Source of the DNA: Roseiflexus sp. RS-1
GTDB lineage: Bacteria > Chloroflexota > Chloroflexia > Chloroflexales > Roseiflexaceae
Assembly (NCBI RefSeq): GCF_000016665.1
Contig: NC_009523.1
Location: 5,641,501-5,705,500 of the forward strand
Direction: 5' to 3'
Length of the DNA: 64,000 nucleotides
Below the pieces are notes generated by a model. That model was not told where the DNA came from, did no database searches, and saw only the letters and a list, made by a program, of their open reading frames with translations. This document shows positions 9,987 to 18,415 of this stretch, one piece after another. A program made the translations under genes and the position numbers. Numbering within the stretch: the stretch's first letter is position 1; every line of letters begins with the position of its first letter.

Positions 9987-10380
9987 TACCAGATATCAAA
10001 TCACAATCGAACAGGATGTAGCCTGGGGGCGCAGGCGTCCCGCCCGCACGCTTGTCTGGGGGCGCGGGCGTCCCGCCCGCACAGCCCCTGGGTACGCACT
10101 CTCAAGGGTCGATTTCTTGAAAGAGATGCGTGATTTTCTGCATTCCGGTGCGCTTTTGCCCCTCACCCCCCTGCTCGCAAGGGTAGAGTTTTTGGGAGAG
10201 ATGAGCAACGTTCTGCATTCCCGTACGCCTTTGCCCCTCATCCCCCCGACCCCCTTCTCCCACAAGGGGTTGAAAGGGGGGGGATTCGCAGGCAGATTGT
10301 CAACCGTTTCCGTTCCACCGAACGCACGGGCCGATCCGTCGGTATCATGATCATGGAAGGATCGCGAGACACGGAGGATG
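9987..10380. repeat. Gene-free stretch of REP-like repeats
   Basis: Near 10021-10085 a palindromic unit GCGTCCCGCCCGCAC occurs twice. It is followed by two diverged copies of a block containing GAGATG, TTCTGCATTCC and CCCCTCA (around 10115-10160 and 10185-10235) and a C-rich/G-rich hairpin (CCCCCTTCTCCC...AAGGGG). No coding region is supported. Confidence 0.6.
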
Positions 10381-10469
10381 GAATGGCCCGCACGCCCACG
10401 GAACGGTTCTTTTGGCATCGTTGATCCCCCTCGCATAGAACGAATGGCCCGCACGCCCACGGAACGGTT
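10381..10469 (+). repeat. 28-bp direct duplication at the transposase 5' end
   Basis: The sequence GAATGGCCCGCACGCC followed by CACGGAACGGTT occurs at 10381-10408 and again at 10442-10469. The first copy opens the same peptide (MARTPTER) but runs into a stop about 14 codons later. The second copy starts the transposase proper. Confidence 0.8.
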
Positions 10470-11697
10470 GCTGCAGCAGCAGATCCAGACCCTCTTCCCG
10501 CGCTTGTCGCGTCACCGGCGCCGCGCCCTGGCCCGCTGGGTCTTGGGCGCCCTCTTGGCGGGGAGCGCCAATCGTCCCGCGCTGGCGCCGGCGCTCGCCA
10601 CTGCCGGGATCGCCCGCGCCGCCACCCTGGCGGACGCCTGGGATGCCTGGATCGCCGCCCCGGCCCATCGCATTGACACCGCCGACCCACCCGCAGCGGG
10701 TGCGCCACCGGTGGTCAGTCCGCTGGCGTGCGGCGCCGACCTGCTCCGCTGGATTCGCGCGCACTGGACCGGCGGACCGCTGGCGCCTGGGCTGGATGCC
10801 TCCCATCGGCGCGCTGACGTCGTTCTGCTGCGCATGAGCGTCCTCTATCGGGGCACCGCCCTGCCGGTCGCCTGGGTGATCGTCCCGGCGAACCAACCGG
10901 GTGCGTGGGAACCGCACTGGGAGCGGATGCTGCGCTGGGCCCGCAGCGCGCTGCCGCGCGACCAGGAGGTCCTCACGCTGGCGGATCAGGGGTTGTGGAG
11001 CCCCCGGCTGTGGCACGCCATCCGGTCGCAGCAGGTCCATCCCATCATGCGGGTGCGTCCCACGTCGACCTTCGCGCCGACCGGTCAGGCGCGCCAGTCG
11101 GTGCTGCGCCTGGCGCCCGGACCGGGGCATGGATGGGTGGGCGTGGGGGTCGCCTTCAAGCACGCACCCAAGCGGATTGCGGGCACGCTGGCGGTGGCGT
11201 GGGGCGCCGACCATGCGGAACCGTGGGCGCCGCTCGTCGAGCGTTCAGCCGCGCGGGTGGATGCCGCGTGGTATGCCCTGCGCAGTTGGGACGAGGCGGG
11301 CTTCCGCCAAAGTACGTCGATGGGCTGGGACTGGCAACGCGGTCAGTTGACGGACCCGGATGCAGTCGCCTGGCAGTATCTGGTAGTGGCGACGGTCACG
11401 CTGTGGACGGTGGCCGTCGGCACGCGGATCGAAGATGCAGAACAGCAGGGGGTTCCGCCCGGTCGCCTGAAGCGGGCGCCGCCGACGACCGGCGCGCCGC
11501 CGCGCCGTCGCTGGAGCGGCACGGCGCAGCGGGTGATCAGCCTGCTCCGGCGGGGGGCAGGTCGGCGCCTGCGCTGGTTGCTGGCGCAAGGGCGTTGTTG
11601 GGTCCGCTTGTGGTTGCGCCCGGAGCCCTTGCCCAAAATAGGTGACAGCGTAACCATGCATATCTATGACCCGTCCCAATGCCTGAAATCGCCCTAA
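10444..11697 (+). CDS. DDE transposase, IS4-like
   Basis: The protein has about 417 residues. The likely catalytic Asp are in LDASHRRADVVLLRM and LTLADQGLWSPRLW. Near the C-terminal third, YALRSWDEAGFRQST follows the IS4-type Y-x2-R-x3-E-x6-K spacing, with the last position T here instead of K. The catalytic Glu is in that motif. The C-terminus is Arg-rich. I saw no convincing terminal inverted repeats, so the borders of an element cannot be placed; it may be immobile. The start MARTPTER lacks a strong SD. It lies between repeat-rich regions. Confidence 0.75.
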   Translation: MARTPTERLLQQQIQTLFPRLSRHRRRALARWVLGALLAGSANRPALAPALATAGIARAATLADAWDAWIAAPAHRIDTADPPAAGAPPVVSPLACGADLLRWIRAHWTGGPLAPGLDASHRRADVVLLRMSVLYRGTALPVAWVIVPANQPGAWEPHWERMLRWARSALPRDQEVLTLADQGLWSPRLWHAIRSQQVHPIMRVRPTSTFAPTGQARQSVLRLAPGPGHGWVGVGVAFKHAPKRIAGTLAVAWGADHAEPWAPLVERSAARVDAAWYALRSWDEAGFRQSTSMGWDWQRGQLTDPDAVAWQYLVVATVTLWTVAVGTRIEDAEQQGVPPGRLKRAPPTTGAPPRRRWSGTAQRVISLLRRGAGRRLRWLLAQGRCWVRLWLRPEPLPKIGDSVTMHIYDPSQCLKSP

Positions 11698-12480
11698 ATC
11701 CCCCCCCTTTCAACCCACACGGGGAGAAGGGGGAGGTTGGGCGTCCTGACGGCTGAAATGGGAGATGGCGCGCAGGGGCTTGCCAAAAAACCCACCCTTG
11801 TAAGCTGGGGGGCGCAGGCATCTCCCCCACCAGCACGCCTGGGTGCGCGGGCGTCCCGCCCGCACGCAGCCCTGCGCCCCTTCACGGGGACGCAGGCATC
11901 TCCCCCACCAGCACGCCTGGGTGCGCGGGCGTCCCGCCCGCACGCAGCCCTGCGCCCCTTCACGGGGACGCAGGCATCTCCCCCGCACGCAGCCCTGGGT
12001 GCGCGGGCGTCTCGCCCGCACGCAGCCCTGCGCCCCTTCACGGGGACGCAGGCATCTCCCCCGCACGCAGCCCTGGGTGCGCGGGCGTCCCGCCCGCACG
12101 CAGCCCTGCGCCCCTTCACGGGGACGCAGGCATCTCCCCCGCACGCGGCCCTGGGTGCACAGGCGTCTCGCACAGTCGCAGATGTACGCACGACTTGCTC
12201 AAGCACAGCCCCTGGGTGCGCGGGCGTCCCGCCCGCACGCAGCCCTGCGCCCCTTCACGGGGACGCAGGCATCTCCCCCGCACGCAGCCCTGGGTGCGCG
12301 GGCGTCCCGCCCGCACGCAGCCCTGCGCCCCTTCACGGGGACGCAGGCATCTCCCCCGCACGCAGCACCGCCCCATCACGAATGCGCAAGCGTCTCGCCC
12401 GCACAGCCCCTGGGTGCGCGGGCGTCCCGCCCGCACGCAGCCCTGCGCCCCTTCACGGGGGCGCGAGCATCACGTCCTCG
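11698..12480 (+). repeat. 78-bp tandem repeat array
   Basis: The phrase GGGTGCGCGGGCGTC recurs at 11841, 11919, 11997, 12075 and 12153, exactly 78 bp apart. It recurs again at 12214, 12292 and 12412 after two irregular spacers. Each unit carries the palindromic GCGGGCGTCCCGCCCGC and CTGCGCCCCTTCACGGGG. Two unit types differ in the joint (CCCACCAGCAC or CCCGCACGCAG). Because 78 is a multiple of 3, frames stay open on both strands, but the predicted peptides are only repeat translations. The stretch 11698-12561 has no supported gene. Confidence 0.88.
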
Positions 12481-12561: not shown

Positions 12562-13959
12562 TTATACCAGATGTGCTATCAGGCGCGCCAGACTGGCTGT
12601 GATGAACGTTACCAGAAATGCCATCCCCAGCGTAATCACCACACTCATCGCCGCCCACTTATACGAACGGGTTTCCTTATAGATTGTGAGGATCGTCGTG
12701 CCGCACGGATTGTGGAGCAACGAGAAGAGCATCAGGTTCACCGCCGTCAGCAGCGACCATCCGTGCTGCTCCACGAGTAACGCACGAATTGCTTCGCTAC
12801 TGCCCGGACCTTCGACCATTGTGCTGGCGCCGGTGTACATCATCATCATGGTCGGCACGACGATCTCGTTGGCGGGAATGGCGATAATGTAGGCGAGCAG
12901 GATCACGCCGTCGAGACCGAAGATCCGCCCAAACCCATCGAGCCACCCGGCAATGGCGATTGCCAGGTTCGCGTCACCGAACGGAATGTTCGCCAGCAGC
13001 CAGATGACCGCACCCGCTGGCGCTGCCGTCAGCATCGCGCGCCAGAGTACAAAGATCGTCCGGTCGATCAGCGATGTGTACAGAATGCGCAGGACGTTCG
13101 GGCGGCGATAGGGCGGGAGTTCGAGCGTAAAGGCGGAAGCTTCCCCTTTGAGCACTGTTCGCGACAGCAGCCACGACATGAAGAATGTGAATGCCACGCC
13201 GATCAACACGACCCCCACTACCGCGCCAGCAGCGATGAACGAGGCGGTCACACCGCTAAAACCAGCCGCCACAAAGACAGTCGCCAGCATGATCAGCGTC
13301 GGGAAGCGCCCGTTGCACGGAACGAAATTATTCGTCAGGATGGCGATCAACCGCTCACGCGGCGAGTCGATCACCCGTGTCGCCACCACGCCAGCTGCGT
13401 TACACCCGAACCCCATCATCATCGTGAGCGACTGCTTGCCATGGGCGCCTGCTTTTTTGAACAGCCAGTCGAGGTTGAACGCCACGCGCGGCAGGTATCC
13501 AAGGTCTTCCAGCAGCGTGAACGCCGGAAAGAAGATCGCCATCGGCGGGAACATCACCGATACAACCCACGCCAGACAGAGATAGACGCCGTCCCAGATA
13601 AAGCCGGTGATCCACCACGGAACTCCCCAGCTGACGAACAGCGCGCGCGCCCAATCGCCAAACCCGAACAGGACGGCAGCTAGCATCTCTGAAAAAACAT
13701 TTGCGCCCGCAACGGTCATCCAGATAACGACGGTGAGCAACAACAGCATGATCAGCAAGCCGCTGACCGGCGCAGTCACCAGGCGATCAATCCGCTGATC
13801 GAGATCGTACTTCCGATCAGCAGCGGCTTTGACGGCGCGATGCGCAATGCGCTCCGCTTCCGCGTAGAGCGATTGCACCACCTCGTCGCGGAACCCGGAT
13901 GGCAGGCTGTTGCGCAGCGCCTCGGCTCTGGCAAGGACATCCTCCGGTGTCGCCATCAT
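12562..13959 (-). CDS. feoB: FeoB permease half (ferrous iron transport)
   Basis: The membrane part of the Fe(II) transporter, encoded separately from its G domain. The 465 residues begin with a soluble segment (helical region and RAEALRNSLPSG) and then hold the Gate/core helices. Diagnostic motifs are LLEDLGYLPRVAFNLD, MMMGFGCNAAGVVATR (conserved Cys of the first Gate motif), IAILTNNFVPCNGRFP (second conserved Cys) and AIPANEIVVPTMMMMY. The C-terminus includes HNPCGTTILTIYKET. Its start overlaps the stop of the G-domain gene by 4 nt (ATGA), so translation is coupled. The proteins probably act as a two-subunit FeoB. Confidence 0.93.
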   Translation of the reverse strand: MMATPEDVLARAEALRNSLPSGFRDEVVQSLYAEAERIAHRAVKAAADRKYDLDQRIDRLVTAPVSGLLIMLLLLTVVIWMTVAGANVFSEMLAAVLFGFGDWARALFVSWGVPWWITGFIWDGVYLCLAWVVSVMFPPMAIFFPAFTLLEDLGYLPRVAFNLDWLFKKAGAHGKQSLTMMMGFGCNAAGVVATRVIDSPRERLIAILTNNFVPCNGRFPTLIMLATVFVAAGFSGVTASFIAAGAVVGVVLIGVAFTFFMSWLLSRTVLKGEASAFTLELPPYRRPNVLRILYTSLIDRTIFVLWRAMLTAAPAGAVIWLLANIPFGDANLAIAIAGWLDGFGRIFGLDGVILLAYIIAIPANEIVVPTMMMMYTGASTMVEGPGSSEAIRALLVEQHGWSLLTAVNLMLFSLLHNPCGTTILTIYKETRSYKWAAMSVVITLGMAFLVTFITASLARLIAHLV

Positions 13960-14786
13960 TGCCTCCCGACAACAGCCATCGTGCTGCTCAATCGTTCTTC
14001 CGGCGATCGCTGCCGCCTGACAATATCCGCCAGTTCACCGCTGCGGATCGCGTGCTGCACCCGCACGTCGCCTTCAAGCAGGCGAATGGCGAGCCAGCGC
14101 GCATTTGGAATACCGGGCGCCAGTTGCTCGATCAGCGGCGTCAGTTCGCGGATCGCCTTTTGAAACGCAGGCGTTCCCTCAACCCGACGCGGACTGGTGG
14201 CGATGCGCCCTTCGATAACATCGGCAACAGTTGAGAGAAGCGTCATAATACCCTCACCGTTGCGGGCGGAGATTGGCACGGCTGGCACACCCAGATCACG
14301 ACTGAGCACACGTGTGTCCACCTCAATTCCCTTCCGGCGCGCCTCGTCCATCAGGTTCACCGCTACTACCGCCTTATCGGTGATTTCCAGCACCTGCAAC
14401 ACCAGATTCAGATTGCGTTCGAGCGCCGTCGCATCGGTGACCACAATCGTGCAATCTGGTTGACCGAACAGCAGAAAATCGCGCGCCACCTCCTCATCCT
14501 GCGATGTGGAGAGGAGCGAATAGGTCCCCGGCAGATCGACCAGTTTGTACCGGACGCCGTTGAACTGATACCCCCCCTCGGCGCGCGTGACGGTCTTACC
14601 GGGCCAGTTGCCGGTATGCTGTTTCAACCCGGTCAGGGTATTGAAGAGGGTGGACTTGCCGGTGTTGGGATTGCCGGCAAGCGCCACCACCCGGTCGAAT
14701 GTATCCATCTTAATGCCCATCCGCTCCAGATGCGCATACGCCGGGCAGGTCGCACACGGATCGGCAGGCGGCGTTCGTGTCGTCAT
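13956..14786 (-). CDS. feoB: FeoB GTPase half
   Basis: The cytoplasmic G protein of the ferrous iron transporter, 276 residues. G1 is GNPNTGKST, G3 DLPGTYSL, G4 NLMDEA, G5 SARNG; the FeoB-type switch is HTGNWPGKTV. After the G domain comes the helical regulatory segment (about 190-270). The N-terminal extension has CATCPAYAHLERMG, a Cys pair that could bind metal. The start has GGAGGTGAGC upstream. It is the middle gene of a three-gene operon with the DtxR/FeoA regulator 34 bp upstream and the permease overlapping downstream. Confidence 0.94.
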   Translation of the reverse strand: MTTRTPPADPCATCPAYAHLERMGIKMDTFDRVVALAGNPNTGKSTLFNTLTGLKQHTGNWPGKTVTRAEGGYQFNGVRYKLVDLPGTYSLLSTSQDEEVARDFLLFGQPDCTIVVTDATALERNLNLVLQVLEITDKAVVAVNLMDEARRKGIEVDTRVLSRDLGVPAVPISARNGEGIMTLLSTVADVIEGRIATSPRRVEGTPAFQKAIRELTPLIEQLAPGIPNARWLAIRLLEGDVRVQHAIRSGELADIVRRQRSPEERLSSTMAVVGRQ

Positions 14787-14820: not shown

Positions 14821-15831
14821 TCAATTCGAACGATGGGGCCTGACCCAGATACGATCGGCCTGATCCCGTCGGAGTGCGATCAACGTCCCGCGCACGCGGT
14901 AGGCGCGCGGATCGGCGAAAACATTCTGCAATTCAGGGTACACCACTGCACCAGGCGTCAACCCCAGGTCGAGCAACCGGCGCCGGGTAAACCCTTGCAG
15001 TGCGTCATCCAGCGCGACGATCTCAGCCGATTGGTGCAGGGGCACGTCGCTCAGCGGGATCGCGTGGTTACGAGCCGCCTCCTCTTCCGTCAGCGGCGCC
15101 AGCGTGACATTGACCGCGACAGCAGGCGCCAGACGGTACTCATGCTCGCCGTCGCTCAACACCAGGCGCTCCGGTGTCCGCTCCAGCACCCGCACAACCT
15201 GCCCCAGGCGCAGACCAACCGCCAGAATCTGCGCATAGGCAATCGCCGGTTCGTCCTCCAGATGCACAATGCGTCCCGGCGTGTCGAGGGGCCAGGCGGT
15301 AAGCGGAATTCCTGCCACATCGGACAACGACCCCTCACGGTTCGGGATCGGGTCGCCGTGCGGATCGCGCCGGGGATAGCCCATCGCCGCTTCCAGTTCG
15401 TCCAGTTGCGCCGCGGTCAACGTATGTTCGCGCCGCTGCGCCTCATCGTGCACCCGCGCCAGCGGCATGCGCGCTTCGTCCGCCAGATAGCGTTCCCAGA
15501 GCCGATGCGCGCGCACCACGTGCAGCGCCCAACGCTCGCCTTCTGGCGTCAGGTGCAGTTCTGCGCCGCGCGTTTCAAGCAAACCCTGTGCTTCCATCTT
15601 TTCGATCAGGCGCATACTCCGCGCACGTGGCAGCGCCAGCGCCCCACTGAGCGACTCCGGCGTGGCATGACGCCCCTGATGCTCGCGGTTGAGCAGATAC
15701 TTGAGCGCATCCTCAACCAGTTCCCGCTCGCGCGTCGCCCGCCAGGTGCGGTAGAACGCAAGCAGACCGATTCTGGGAAGCGCCATCCATACGATGCCGC
15801 ACAGGAGAATCAACACAACCCATCCATTCAT
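14821..15831 (-). CDS. Membrane-anchored DtxR-like regulator with FeoA domains
   Basis: The protein has 336 residues. MNGWVVLILLCGIVWMALP is a transmembrane segment. A winged-helix region follows (about 30-100: EDALKYLLNREHQGRHATPE, ALPRARSMRLIEKMEAQG, ELHLTPEGERWAL) and then a DtxR-type dimerisation segment with H/E residues (VRAHRLWERYLADEA, HDEAQRREHTLT). Two FeoA/SH3-like segments end the protein; the last carries the FeoA hallmark RRRLLDLGLTPGAVV and RAYRVRGTLIALRRDQA. I chose the ATG at 15831 with GAGGAA upstream. As first gene of the feo operon it is the likely iron-responsive repressor, or a hybrid FeoA subunit. A membrane-tethered DtxR homologue is unusual. Confidence 0.82.
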   Translation of the reverse strand: MNGWVVLILLCGIVWMALPRIGLLAFYRTWRATRERELVEDALKYLLNREHQGRHATPESLSGALALPRARSMRLIEKMEAQGLLETRGAELHLTPEGERWALHVVRAHRLWERYLADEARMPLARVHDEAQRREHTLTAAQLDELEAAMGYPRRDPHGDPIPNREGSLSDVAGIPLTAWPLDTPGRIVHLEDEPAIAYAQILAVGLRLGQVVRVLERTPERLVLSDGEHEYRLAPAVAVNVTLAPLTEEEAARNHAIPLSDVPLHQSAEIVALDDALQGFTRRRLLDLGLTPGAVVYPELQNVFADPRAYRVRGTLIALRRDQADRIWVRPHRSN

Positions 15832-15898
15832 CGCGTTCCTCAGCAAGACCGGTGTTGCATAACACTGGGTCGTTGGCGCATGCAGCACATTAATGTAA

Positions 15899-15914
15899 TT
15901 TAGGCATTCCTAAA
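15899..15914. promoter_or_regulatory. DtxR-like operator palindrome
   Basis: TTTAGGCATTCCTAAA is a perfect 6-4-6 inverted repeat. It resembles half-sites of DtxR/IdeR boxes (TTAGG...CCTAA). It sits just downstream of the -10 hexamer, over the expected transcription start of the feo operon, where a bound repressor would block initiation. Confidence 0.65.
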
Positions 15915-15917
15915 ATA

Positions 15918-15946
15918 AATATACTGCTGGCAGAAACTTTTGTCAA
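15918..15946 (-). promoter_or_regulatory. Promoter of the feo operon
   Basis: On the minus strand, TTGACA (15946-15941) and TATATT (15923-15918) lie 17 nt apart. The transcript would begin near 15911, inside the palindrome, about 80 nt before the regulator gene. Confidence 0.75.
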
Positions 15947-16039: not shown

Positions 16040-16068
16040 TTGACCTGATTTCGGATAAATGGTATACT
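16040..16068 (+). promoter_or_regulatory. Promoter of the DNA methyltransferase gene
   Basis: TTGACC (16040-16045), a 17-nt spacer and TATACT (16063-16068). The predicted start of transcription near 16075 lies after the ATG-like codon at 16059, which argues for translation from 16116. Confidence 0.65.
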
Positions 16069-16115
16069 CCTCCCAGAAATGCAGCGTCTGTGGATTTCTC
16101 GGTGGAGCGACAGAT

Positions 16116-16955
16116 ATGGCTGACGACCTGACACTCACGCGATTGAACCGGATTATCCAGGGCGATTGTATGGAGGAACTTGCCGCACTCAGCGACGAGT
16201 CGATCGATCTCACCCTGTTTTCACCGCCGTATGATGGTATTCGAGACTACAAGAAGAACTGGTCGTTCGACATTGTCGAACTCGGCGACCAACTGTACCG
16301 GGTGACAAAAGACGGCGGCGTGGTTGTGGTCATTATCGGCGACGGAACCAGGCAATTCGCCAAATCACTGACATCCTTCCGTCTGGCAGTCTCATGGGTT
16401 GATGAAATCGGCTGGAAACTCTTTGAGTGCGTGATCTATCATCGCGATGGCAACCCCGGCGCGTGGTGGAATCAGCGGTTCCGTGTCGATCACGAGTACG
16501 TGCTGATCTTTTTTAAAGGAGAGCGACCGAAAACATTTCAGAAAGATCACCTTATGGTTCCAAGCAAACACGCCGGGAAAATCTACTCAGGGACGGATCG
16601 CCTGACCAATGGCGGATTCAAGCGCATCACCCCCAAAGCAGTCAATCCTTTGAAATGCAGAGGGACGGTCTGGCGATACGCAACCAGCAACACGGAGGGC
16701 AATCGTCTGAAACTGCAACATCCGGCAACCTTTCCCGATAAACTCGCAGAGGACATTATTCTCTGCTTTTCCCAACCGGGGGACATCGTTCTGGATCCAA
16801 TGTGTGGGAGCGGAACGACGTGCGTCATGGCGCGGAACCATCAGCGTCACTTTATCGGAATCGAGATAAGTCCAGAGTATTGTGAGATTGCCGGAAAACG
16901 CCTGGCAATGGAGCATCAGCCTGCCGAACAGCAAACTCTGTTCTATGGAATTTGA
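16116..16955 (+). CDS. DNA methyltransferase (N4/N6, beta-class), orphan
   Basis: The protein has 279 residues. The amino-methyltransferase catalytic motif IV is LTLFSPPYDG near the N-terminus. The SAM-binding motif I is near the C-terminus in QPGDIVLDPMCGSGTTCVMA. This order (IV before I) is that of the beta class. Between them lie a target-recognition region (GAWWNQRFRVDHEYVLIFFK and WRYATSNTEGNRLKLQHPAT) and the FPDKLAEDII segment common in these enzymes. The start at 16116 has GGAG 9 nt upstream and follows the promoter at 16040. No restriction enzyme gene is adjacent, so it is an orphan or regulatory methylase. Confidence 0.9.
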   Translation: MADDLTLTRLNRIIQGDCMEELAALSDESIDLTLFSPPYDGIRDYKKNWSFDIVELGDQLYRVTKDGGVVVVIIGDGTRQFAKSLTSFRLAVSWVDEIGWKLFECVIYHRDGNPGAWWNQRFRVDHEYVLIFFKGERPKTFQKDHLMVPSKHAGKIYSGTDRLTNGGFKRITPKAVNPLKCRGTVWRYATSNTEGNRLKLQHPATFPDKLAEDIILCFSQPGDIVLDPMCGSGTTCVMARNHQRHFIGIEISPEYCEIAGKRLAMEHQPAEQQTLFYGI

Positions 16956-17452: not shown

Positions 17453-18415
17453 ATGGCTTCCCGTGAGTCGCTCTTTATCGGCATTGATGTCTCCAAACAG
17501 ACGCTGGATGTGGCGTTTGGCGCCGACCCGCACGCGCCACGCGAGACGATACCGTCTACCGACGAAGGTGTCCAGCTCCTGGTCACGCGACTCCAGCGCC
17601 TGCAGCCGACCCTGATTGTGCTGGAGGCGACCGGCGGGCTGGAGCGCATGGTGTTCGCCCAACTGCTCCAGGCTGGCGTGCCGACGGCGCGGGTGCAGCC
17701 ACGCCGCGTGCGCGCCCTGGCGCACGCGGAAGGACGCCAGGCGAAGACCGACCGCCTGGATGCCCGGTTGCTCGCCCGCTTTGCCGAACGGGTGCGCCCG
17801 CCGCACCACCAAGCGACGGACGAGCAGCGCGCATCCTTGCGCGACCTGCTGGTCCGGCGGGAGCAGTTGATTCAGATGCGGACGGCTGAGATCAATCGGT
17901 TGACGGCTGCCGCGCCGAACCTCCGCCCGGGCATCCAGCAGCATATTGATTGGCTGGATCAGGAGATCCGTGCGCTTGAGCAGGAACGCGACAACGAGGC
18001 GGAGCGCACCGACGAGGTGCGCCGGAAACGGGAGCTGCGCGACAGCGTGCCCGGCATCGGCGCGATCACCGCACTGAACCTGCTGCTCCGCCTGCCCGAA
18101 CTGGGGACCATCAAGCGCACGGAAGCGGCGGCCGTTGTGGGCGTTGCGCCGTATGCCAATCAGAGCGGCGCACAGCACAAACCCCGGCATATCTCCGGCG
18201 GCAGGAGGGATGTGCGCAGCGTGTTGTACATGGCGACCCTGGCGGCCACGCGGCGCCGTCTGGTCAGGCGCGCCTTCTATCAGCGCCTGTGTCAAGCTGG
18301 CAAGCCGCGCAAGGTCGCCATCGTCGCTGCGATGCGCAAGCTGCTGACTATTCTCGGCGCAATATTGCGTCAGCAAAAGCCCTGGGATCCGGCTGTGCAT
18401 ACGAGCGCCCCTTGA
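17453..18415 (+). CDS. IS110-family DEDD recombinase, copy A
   Basis: The protein has 320 residues. The N-terminal RuvC-like domain has the four acidic residues of DEDD transposases: IGIDVSKQTLDVA, VLEATGGLE and KTDRLDARLLARFAER. The C-terminal Transposase_20 domain has DSVPGIGAITALNLLLRLPE, GVAPYANQSGAQ (likely nucleophilic Ser in QSG) and ISGGRRDVRSVLYMATLAA, then FYQRL and KVAIVAAMRKLLTIL. The start follows AGGAGG. The sequence keeps consensus residues at the three positions where copy B differs, so this copy is the better candidate for activity. Confidence 0.94.
   Translation: MASRESLFIGIDVSKQTLDVAFGADPHAPRETIPSTDEGVQLLVTRLQRLQPTLIVLEATGGLERMVFAQLLQAGVPTARVQPRRVRALAHAEGRQAKTDRLDARLLARFAERVRPPHHQATDEQRASLRDLLVRREQLIQMRTAEINRLTAAAPNLRPGIQQHIDWLDQEIRALEQERDNEAERTDEVRRKRELRDSVPGIGAITALNLLLRLPELGTIKRTEAAAVVGVAPYANQSGAQHKPRHISGGRRDVRSVLYMATLAATRRRLVRRAFYQRLCQAGKPRKVAIVAAMRKLLTILGAILRQQKPWDPAVHTSAP

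Follow-up and report, generated by a model that had tools for sequence, protein, structure and literature searches.

Genes and domains of the feo operon

The window, that is, the whole stretch of DNA that we analyzed, comprises 64,000 nucleotides from Roseiflexus sp. RS-1, and all positions below are counted within it unless stated otherwise. On its minus strand, a feo operon begins with a gene that encodes a 336-aa protein (14821..15831). A first-pass annotation had described this protein as a transmembrane helix joined to a DtxR-like module and a FeoA part, and the open reading frame and its architecture are confirmed by Pfam (Fe_dep_repr_C, 1.9e-22; FeoA, PF04023, 6.3e-21) and by an AlphaFold model built with 60 homologs (mean pLDDT of 96). 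The start codon is the ATG at 15831, which lies 5′ of the hydrophobic segment, is preceded at a distance of 4 nt by the ribosome-binding site GAGGAA (15836..15841, minus strand), and opens an N-terminus that is kept in orthologs. Hydropathy and conservation of this N-terminal segment place a transmembrane helix at about residues 2–22 (15766..15828, minus strand), modeled as a helix at residues 2–16, which bears out the proposed membrane anchoring. The positive-inside rule predicts an N-out/C-in topology.

The remaining domains follow on the same strand. A winged helix-turn-helix spans residues 23–95 (15547..15765); its recognition helix, residues 69–81, has diverged, and the Pfam search gave no match to PF01325 for this domain. 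The metal-binding and dimerization domain PF02742 (15337..15546) supplies the ligands H109, E113, H128, E135 and H136, which are joined by D41. A first SH3/FeoA domain (15091..15318) carries a clade-specific H190-x-E-D-E-P motif, and a second, C-terminal FeoA domain, PF04023, occupies 14833..15066. The model arranges the chain as helix 2–16, helix 23–51, winged helix, metal/dimer domain, SH3 domain and one more FeoA domain, with an intact DtxR fold across residues 33–247. Residues 38–247 align structurally with the manganese-dependent repressor 5ZR6 (Z score of 24.7, rmsd of 1.5 over 206 residues), and consequently the first of the two domains that had been called FeoA-like is the normal SH3 domain of DtxR. 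The second retains that description; judging from the model, this last FeoA domain is the only one that is extra relative to DtxR.

The operon continues with two genes that together encode FeoB. The first, feoB-N (13956..14786, minus strand), contains the FeoB G-protein domain with an N-terminal CxxC, and the second, feoB-C (12562..13959, minus strand), contains the membrane part with the motifs GFGCNAAGV and PCNGRFP; the two genes overlap by 4 bp. The earlier description of a feo operon led by the anchored DtxR–FeoA gene is correct, with the amendment that feoB is split. The Pfam matches to FeoB are PF02421 (6.3e-60), PF07670 (1.7e-27) and PF07664 (3.4e-15). The operon has no second feoA gene inside it, and it holds the same complete set of parts as the Feo ferrous-iron system (FeoA, FeoB), namely a G domain, a gate domain and a FeoA domain. 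It differs from that system in that FeoB is split in two, FeoA is fused to a transmembrane DtxR module, and the gate reads GFGCNAAGV and PCNGR[FWY]P, whereas the ordinary FeoBs of sister genomes have GFGCNVPA and are about 27–31% identical to this FeoB across the membrane part. Within the set of papers covered by a literature search, nothing specific turned up on a membrane-anchored DtxR–FeoA protein or on a FeoB split in two.

Directly 3′ of feoB-C lie GC-rich tandem repeats of 78 bp (4.7 copies, 95% match, 11808–12471), which adjoin a transposase-like ORF at 10378–11697. On the other side, a DNA methyltransferase-like gene (16059–16955) diverges from the operon under its own sigma-70-like promoter, TTGACC-17-TATACT at 16040, and is followed by a transposase-like gene that resembles IS110 (17453–18415).

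Promoter and operator

The operon's promoter consists of a −35 hexamer TTGACA (15941..15946, minus strand), which does not vary among six genomes of the genus, and a −10 hexamer TATATT (15918..15923, minus strand), separated by a 17-nt spacer and together matching the consensus at 11 of 12 positions. An operator, TTTAGG-N4-CCTAAA (15899..15914), covers the predicted start of transcription; read on the minus strand, it is the palindrome TTTAGGAATGCCTAAA at 15914–15899, 3′ of TATATT. Promoter and palindrome thus lie where the first-pass annotation had put them.

The palindrome occurs exactly twice in the whole 5.80-Mb genome, and loosening the arms to TTTAGN6CTAAA or allowing one mismatch revealed no further operators anywhere in the genome. 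All six genomes of the genus have exactly the same two sites, and at the feo operon both arms are invariant across them while the 4-nt center varies. This rarity and invariance indicate that the palindrome is not a chance occurrence. The second copy lies 12 bp 5′ of a soluble 237-aa DtxR gene that has its own promoter. Its product has manganese-dependent MntR as its best NCBIfam model, at 224 bits against a curated cut-off of 350 that it does not reach. In relatives of the same order that have no anchored gene, the palindrome precedes mntH (Nramp), genes for metal ABC substrate-binding proteins, or soluble dtxR, as named from their translations. Elsewhere in the Chloroflexota, one family has a soluble dtxR as the first gene of the operon, preceded by TTGACA and a palindrome of similar form, ATTTAG-N6-CTAAAT. 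The textbook DtxR box contains TTAGG-N4-CCTAA. Given the copy before the soluble dtxR, the genus-wide pair of sites, and the relatives in which the palindrome occurs without an anchored gene, the operator most likely belongs to the separate soluble MntR-like DtxR.

The earlier proposal had been that the repressor acting on this palindrome could be the metal-loaded anchored protein, which would in addition touch FeoB. Many members of the DtxR family regulate their own genes, and the model leaves the DtxR fold intact, the winged helix included. The sharing of the site with a soluble regulator, and its presence where the anchored gene is missing, nonetheless argue against such a role, as does the sequence of the recognition helix, to which we turn below.

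A separate observation comes from one relative (locus L108, upstream of 5214): there, an operator-like TTTAGCCTAGCCTAAA reaches right up to the start codon, ATG, of the anchored gene, as if the transcript had no leader.

Distribution of the anchored family and its linkage to feoB

A phylum search and a scan of genome contigs recovered orthologs in Chloroflexota, Bacteroidota (including Flavobacteriia, Cytophagia and Ignavibacteria), Acidobacteriota, Gemmatimonadota, Planctomycetota, Verrucomicrobiota, Myxococcota and Calditrichota, and in one record named Chlorobiota. The count of about nine phyla is approximate, as names are those on the records, which are mostly metagenome bins; many of the genomes compared are drafts of this kind. 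Among 78 twin-FeoA loci, 68 encode a clear N-terminal hydrophobic segment. The transmembrane helix is missing from two Bacteroidales members (L214, L215) and from L152, L191, L195 and L199, so that membrane anchoring is not universal in the family. In a tree made without the recognition-helix and wing columns, the anchored proteins and the two Bacteroidales members that lack the helix form one clade (support 0.997).

A feoB lies directly downstream in all 77 testable loci, split in 54 of them and a single ORF in 23 (one, L166, counted by inspection). The FeoA part therefore appears suited to a putative contact with FeoB, as had been suggested, since every testable locus has feoB in the next position and the operon has no other feoA. 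In 30 of the 78 loci, the twin-FeoA gene is immediately preceded by a soluble dtxR read from the same strand, and the ends of the two genes often overlap. Of 20 sampled draft genomes without an adjacent one, 15 have a soluble DtxR elsewhere, and a complete separate soluble DtxR was not found in the other five.

Other Chloroflexota contain untethered twin-FeoA DtxRs (L113–L117) that keep a canonical recognition helix and are followed by a single-ORF FeoB. TTAGGN4CCTAA boxes lie directly 5′ of two of these genes, two boxes in L114 (1229–1257) and one in L116 (4459).

Conservation of metal ligands and divergence of the recognition helix

We compared the conservation of the metal site with that of the DNA-recognition helix. 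In DtxR numbering, the ligands D10, H79, E83, H98, E105 and H106 vary little or not at all among 88 anchored proteins; part of the loci were retrieved by the patterns DPHGDPIP or RAHRL[WL]ERY, which include the H79, E83 and DPHG columns and bias their conservation upward, whereas D10, H98, E105, H106 and the HxEDEP motif lie outside these patterns. The H-x-E-D-E-P motif, within the first SH3/FeoA domain, is likewise invariant or nearly so across phyla. Position 102 of the primary site is E, Q, D, H, N, C or S, and is Q in the window protein; as many members have Q, H, D or N here, their metal affinity may be altered. This degeneracy is what one might expect if the DtxR module were a relic that anchors or dimerizes the FeoA domain and senses no metal. 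The near-invariance of the other ligands and of HxEDEP across phyla, however, exceeds what a passive scaffold would require, and we regard a purely structural role as quite unlikely.

The recognition helix behaves differently. In the same 37 genomes, its pairwise identity is 0.21 among anchored proteins versus 0.54 among their soluble partners, whereas the metal domain has nearly equal values, 0.51 and 0.53. The T/S7 and M9 signature of the helix is found in none of 90 anchored proteins, in all 42 soluble ones, and in all five untethered twin-FeoA DtxRs. PF01325 matches 8 of 60 anchored proteins versus 29 of 29 soluble proteins, and PF02742 matches all 60 anchored members. The mean charge of the helix in anchored proteins stays positive. 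From this pattern, we infer that the anchored protein has probably lost DNA binding and would no longer read operator DNA. Soluble MntR/DtxR repressors (5ZR6; DR2539, 8PVT/8PW0) share the fold of residues 38–247 and the metal ligands; unlike the anchored protein, they have the recognition-helix signature and match PF01325, and they have neither the membrane anchor nor the extra FeoA domain.

The closest characterized relative of the anchored protein is PgMntR of Porphyromonas gingivalis, a DtxR with twin FeoA domains encoded in an operon with FB2/FeoB2, a reported manganese transporter (PMC4805248). The two proteins share the DtxR module, two FeoA domains, an operon with a FeoB, and HxxDE ligands at identical spacing: H104, H112, D132, H134, H166, D169 and E170 of PgMntR correspond to H128, H136, D156, H158, H190, D193 and E194 here, at a constant offset of 24. 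They differ in that no transmembrane segment is described for PgMntR (D19 versus D41 here) and in that its position 102 is Cys rather than Q. Judged from the published residue numbers, PgMntR is apparently a member of the anchored clade without the transmembrane helix. They differ also in the DNA binding in vitro shown for PgMntR: in gel shifts at high nanomolar concentration, it bound the promoter of the FB2 operon to which it belongs, already as the apo form and more strongly when Mn2+ was present (PMC4805248).

Because PgMntR binds promoter DNA in vitro, the anchored clade may still bind DNA, and the tethered-repressor proposal gains from this untethered relative. Against it stand the shared operator, an unconstrained recognition helix whose signature is lost, the mostly lost PF01325 match, and the soluble dtxR that shares the operon in 30 of the 78 loci. 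Overall, we consider repression by the tethered protein unlikely.

Juxtamembrane cleavage could also release the DtxR module, which would then act on DNA. In Chlamydia, cleavage of YtgCR frees its DtxR-like part. There, as here, a DtxR-like module is physically joined to a metal importer at the membrane; the repressor, YtgR, is described as DtxR-like and as linked to the permease of an ABC system (PMC7755916, PMC5599777). In contrast to the Feo-type operon, YtgCR is part of an ABC system, and its DtxR part acts on DNA. In the anchored family, the recognition helix has diverged, a soluble repressor is already present, and no conserved cleavage site was noticed, which together make proteolytic release very improbable.

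A probable tethered sensor for a FeoB-type importer

We consider it probable that the operon encodes a FeoB-type importer whose tethered DtxR–FeoA protein senses metal and modulates FeoB, with a soluble DtxR controlling transcription. The divalent-metal importer would be assembled from two gene products, a GTPase part and a membrane part, and its FeoA subunit would be fused to a membrane-anchored, metal-binding DtxR module. When metal is replete, the separate soluble MntR-like DtxR would bind the palindrome and thereby control the operon's transcription. The tethered protein would sense cytoplasmic metal at the membrane through its conserved ligands, and its C-terminal FeoA domain would modulate FeoB, most likely by turning it off once metal is abundant. 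The putative contact with FeoB, and the direction of its effect, draw on a report that FeoA stabilizes GTP-bound FeoB in Bacteroides fragilis (PMC8980893).

The finding bears on how FeoA controls FeoB and on how cells stop FeoB at high metal supply: with a metalloregulator-type sensor built into FeoA, metal feedback on the importer becomes a directly testable proposal.

Metal cargo

Elsewhere in this genome (G000:C1:684000-690000) lies another feo operon, of the ordinary kind, with a DtxR-like regulator, a separate FeoA and a FeoB. This regulator has iron-type ligands, M10 and C102, and has lost the ancillary ligands; the soluble regulator tied to the anchored-gene operon has manganese-type ligands, D10 and E102. 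A search of six genomes of the genus found no Nramp gene and two or three ZnuA-type matches. Because of the MntR-type ligands, the missing Nramp, the PgMntR/FB2 parallel and the FeoB gate motifs, Mn2+ is about as likely a cargo as Fe2+, and is perhaps slightly favored. The earlier claim that the anchored protein reads iron is therefore doubtful, manganese being at least as likely.

A broader evolutionary reading is more tentative. In about nine phyla, a DtxR repressor may have been exapted as an anchored sensor that does not bind DNA and serves as the FeoA subunit of a distinct, Mn2+-importing FeoB subfamily; the soluble copy would then govern transcription and the tethered copy post-translational feedback, often from the same operon. 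The sequence signature described here is offered for this possibly manganese-transporting subfamily. Many phyla have proteins whose annotation as DtxR or MntR transcriptional regulators may mislead, in that they may not be repressors that bind DNA. The Roseiflexus genome encodes two further DtxR-like paralogs, at G000:C1:5706812-5707318 and 4470645-4471010, the latter of which has lost most of its metal ligands.
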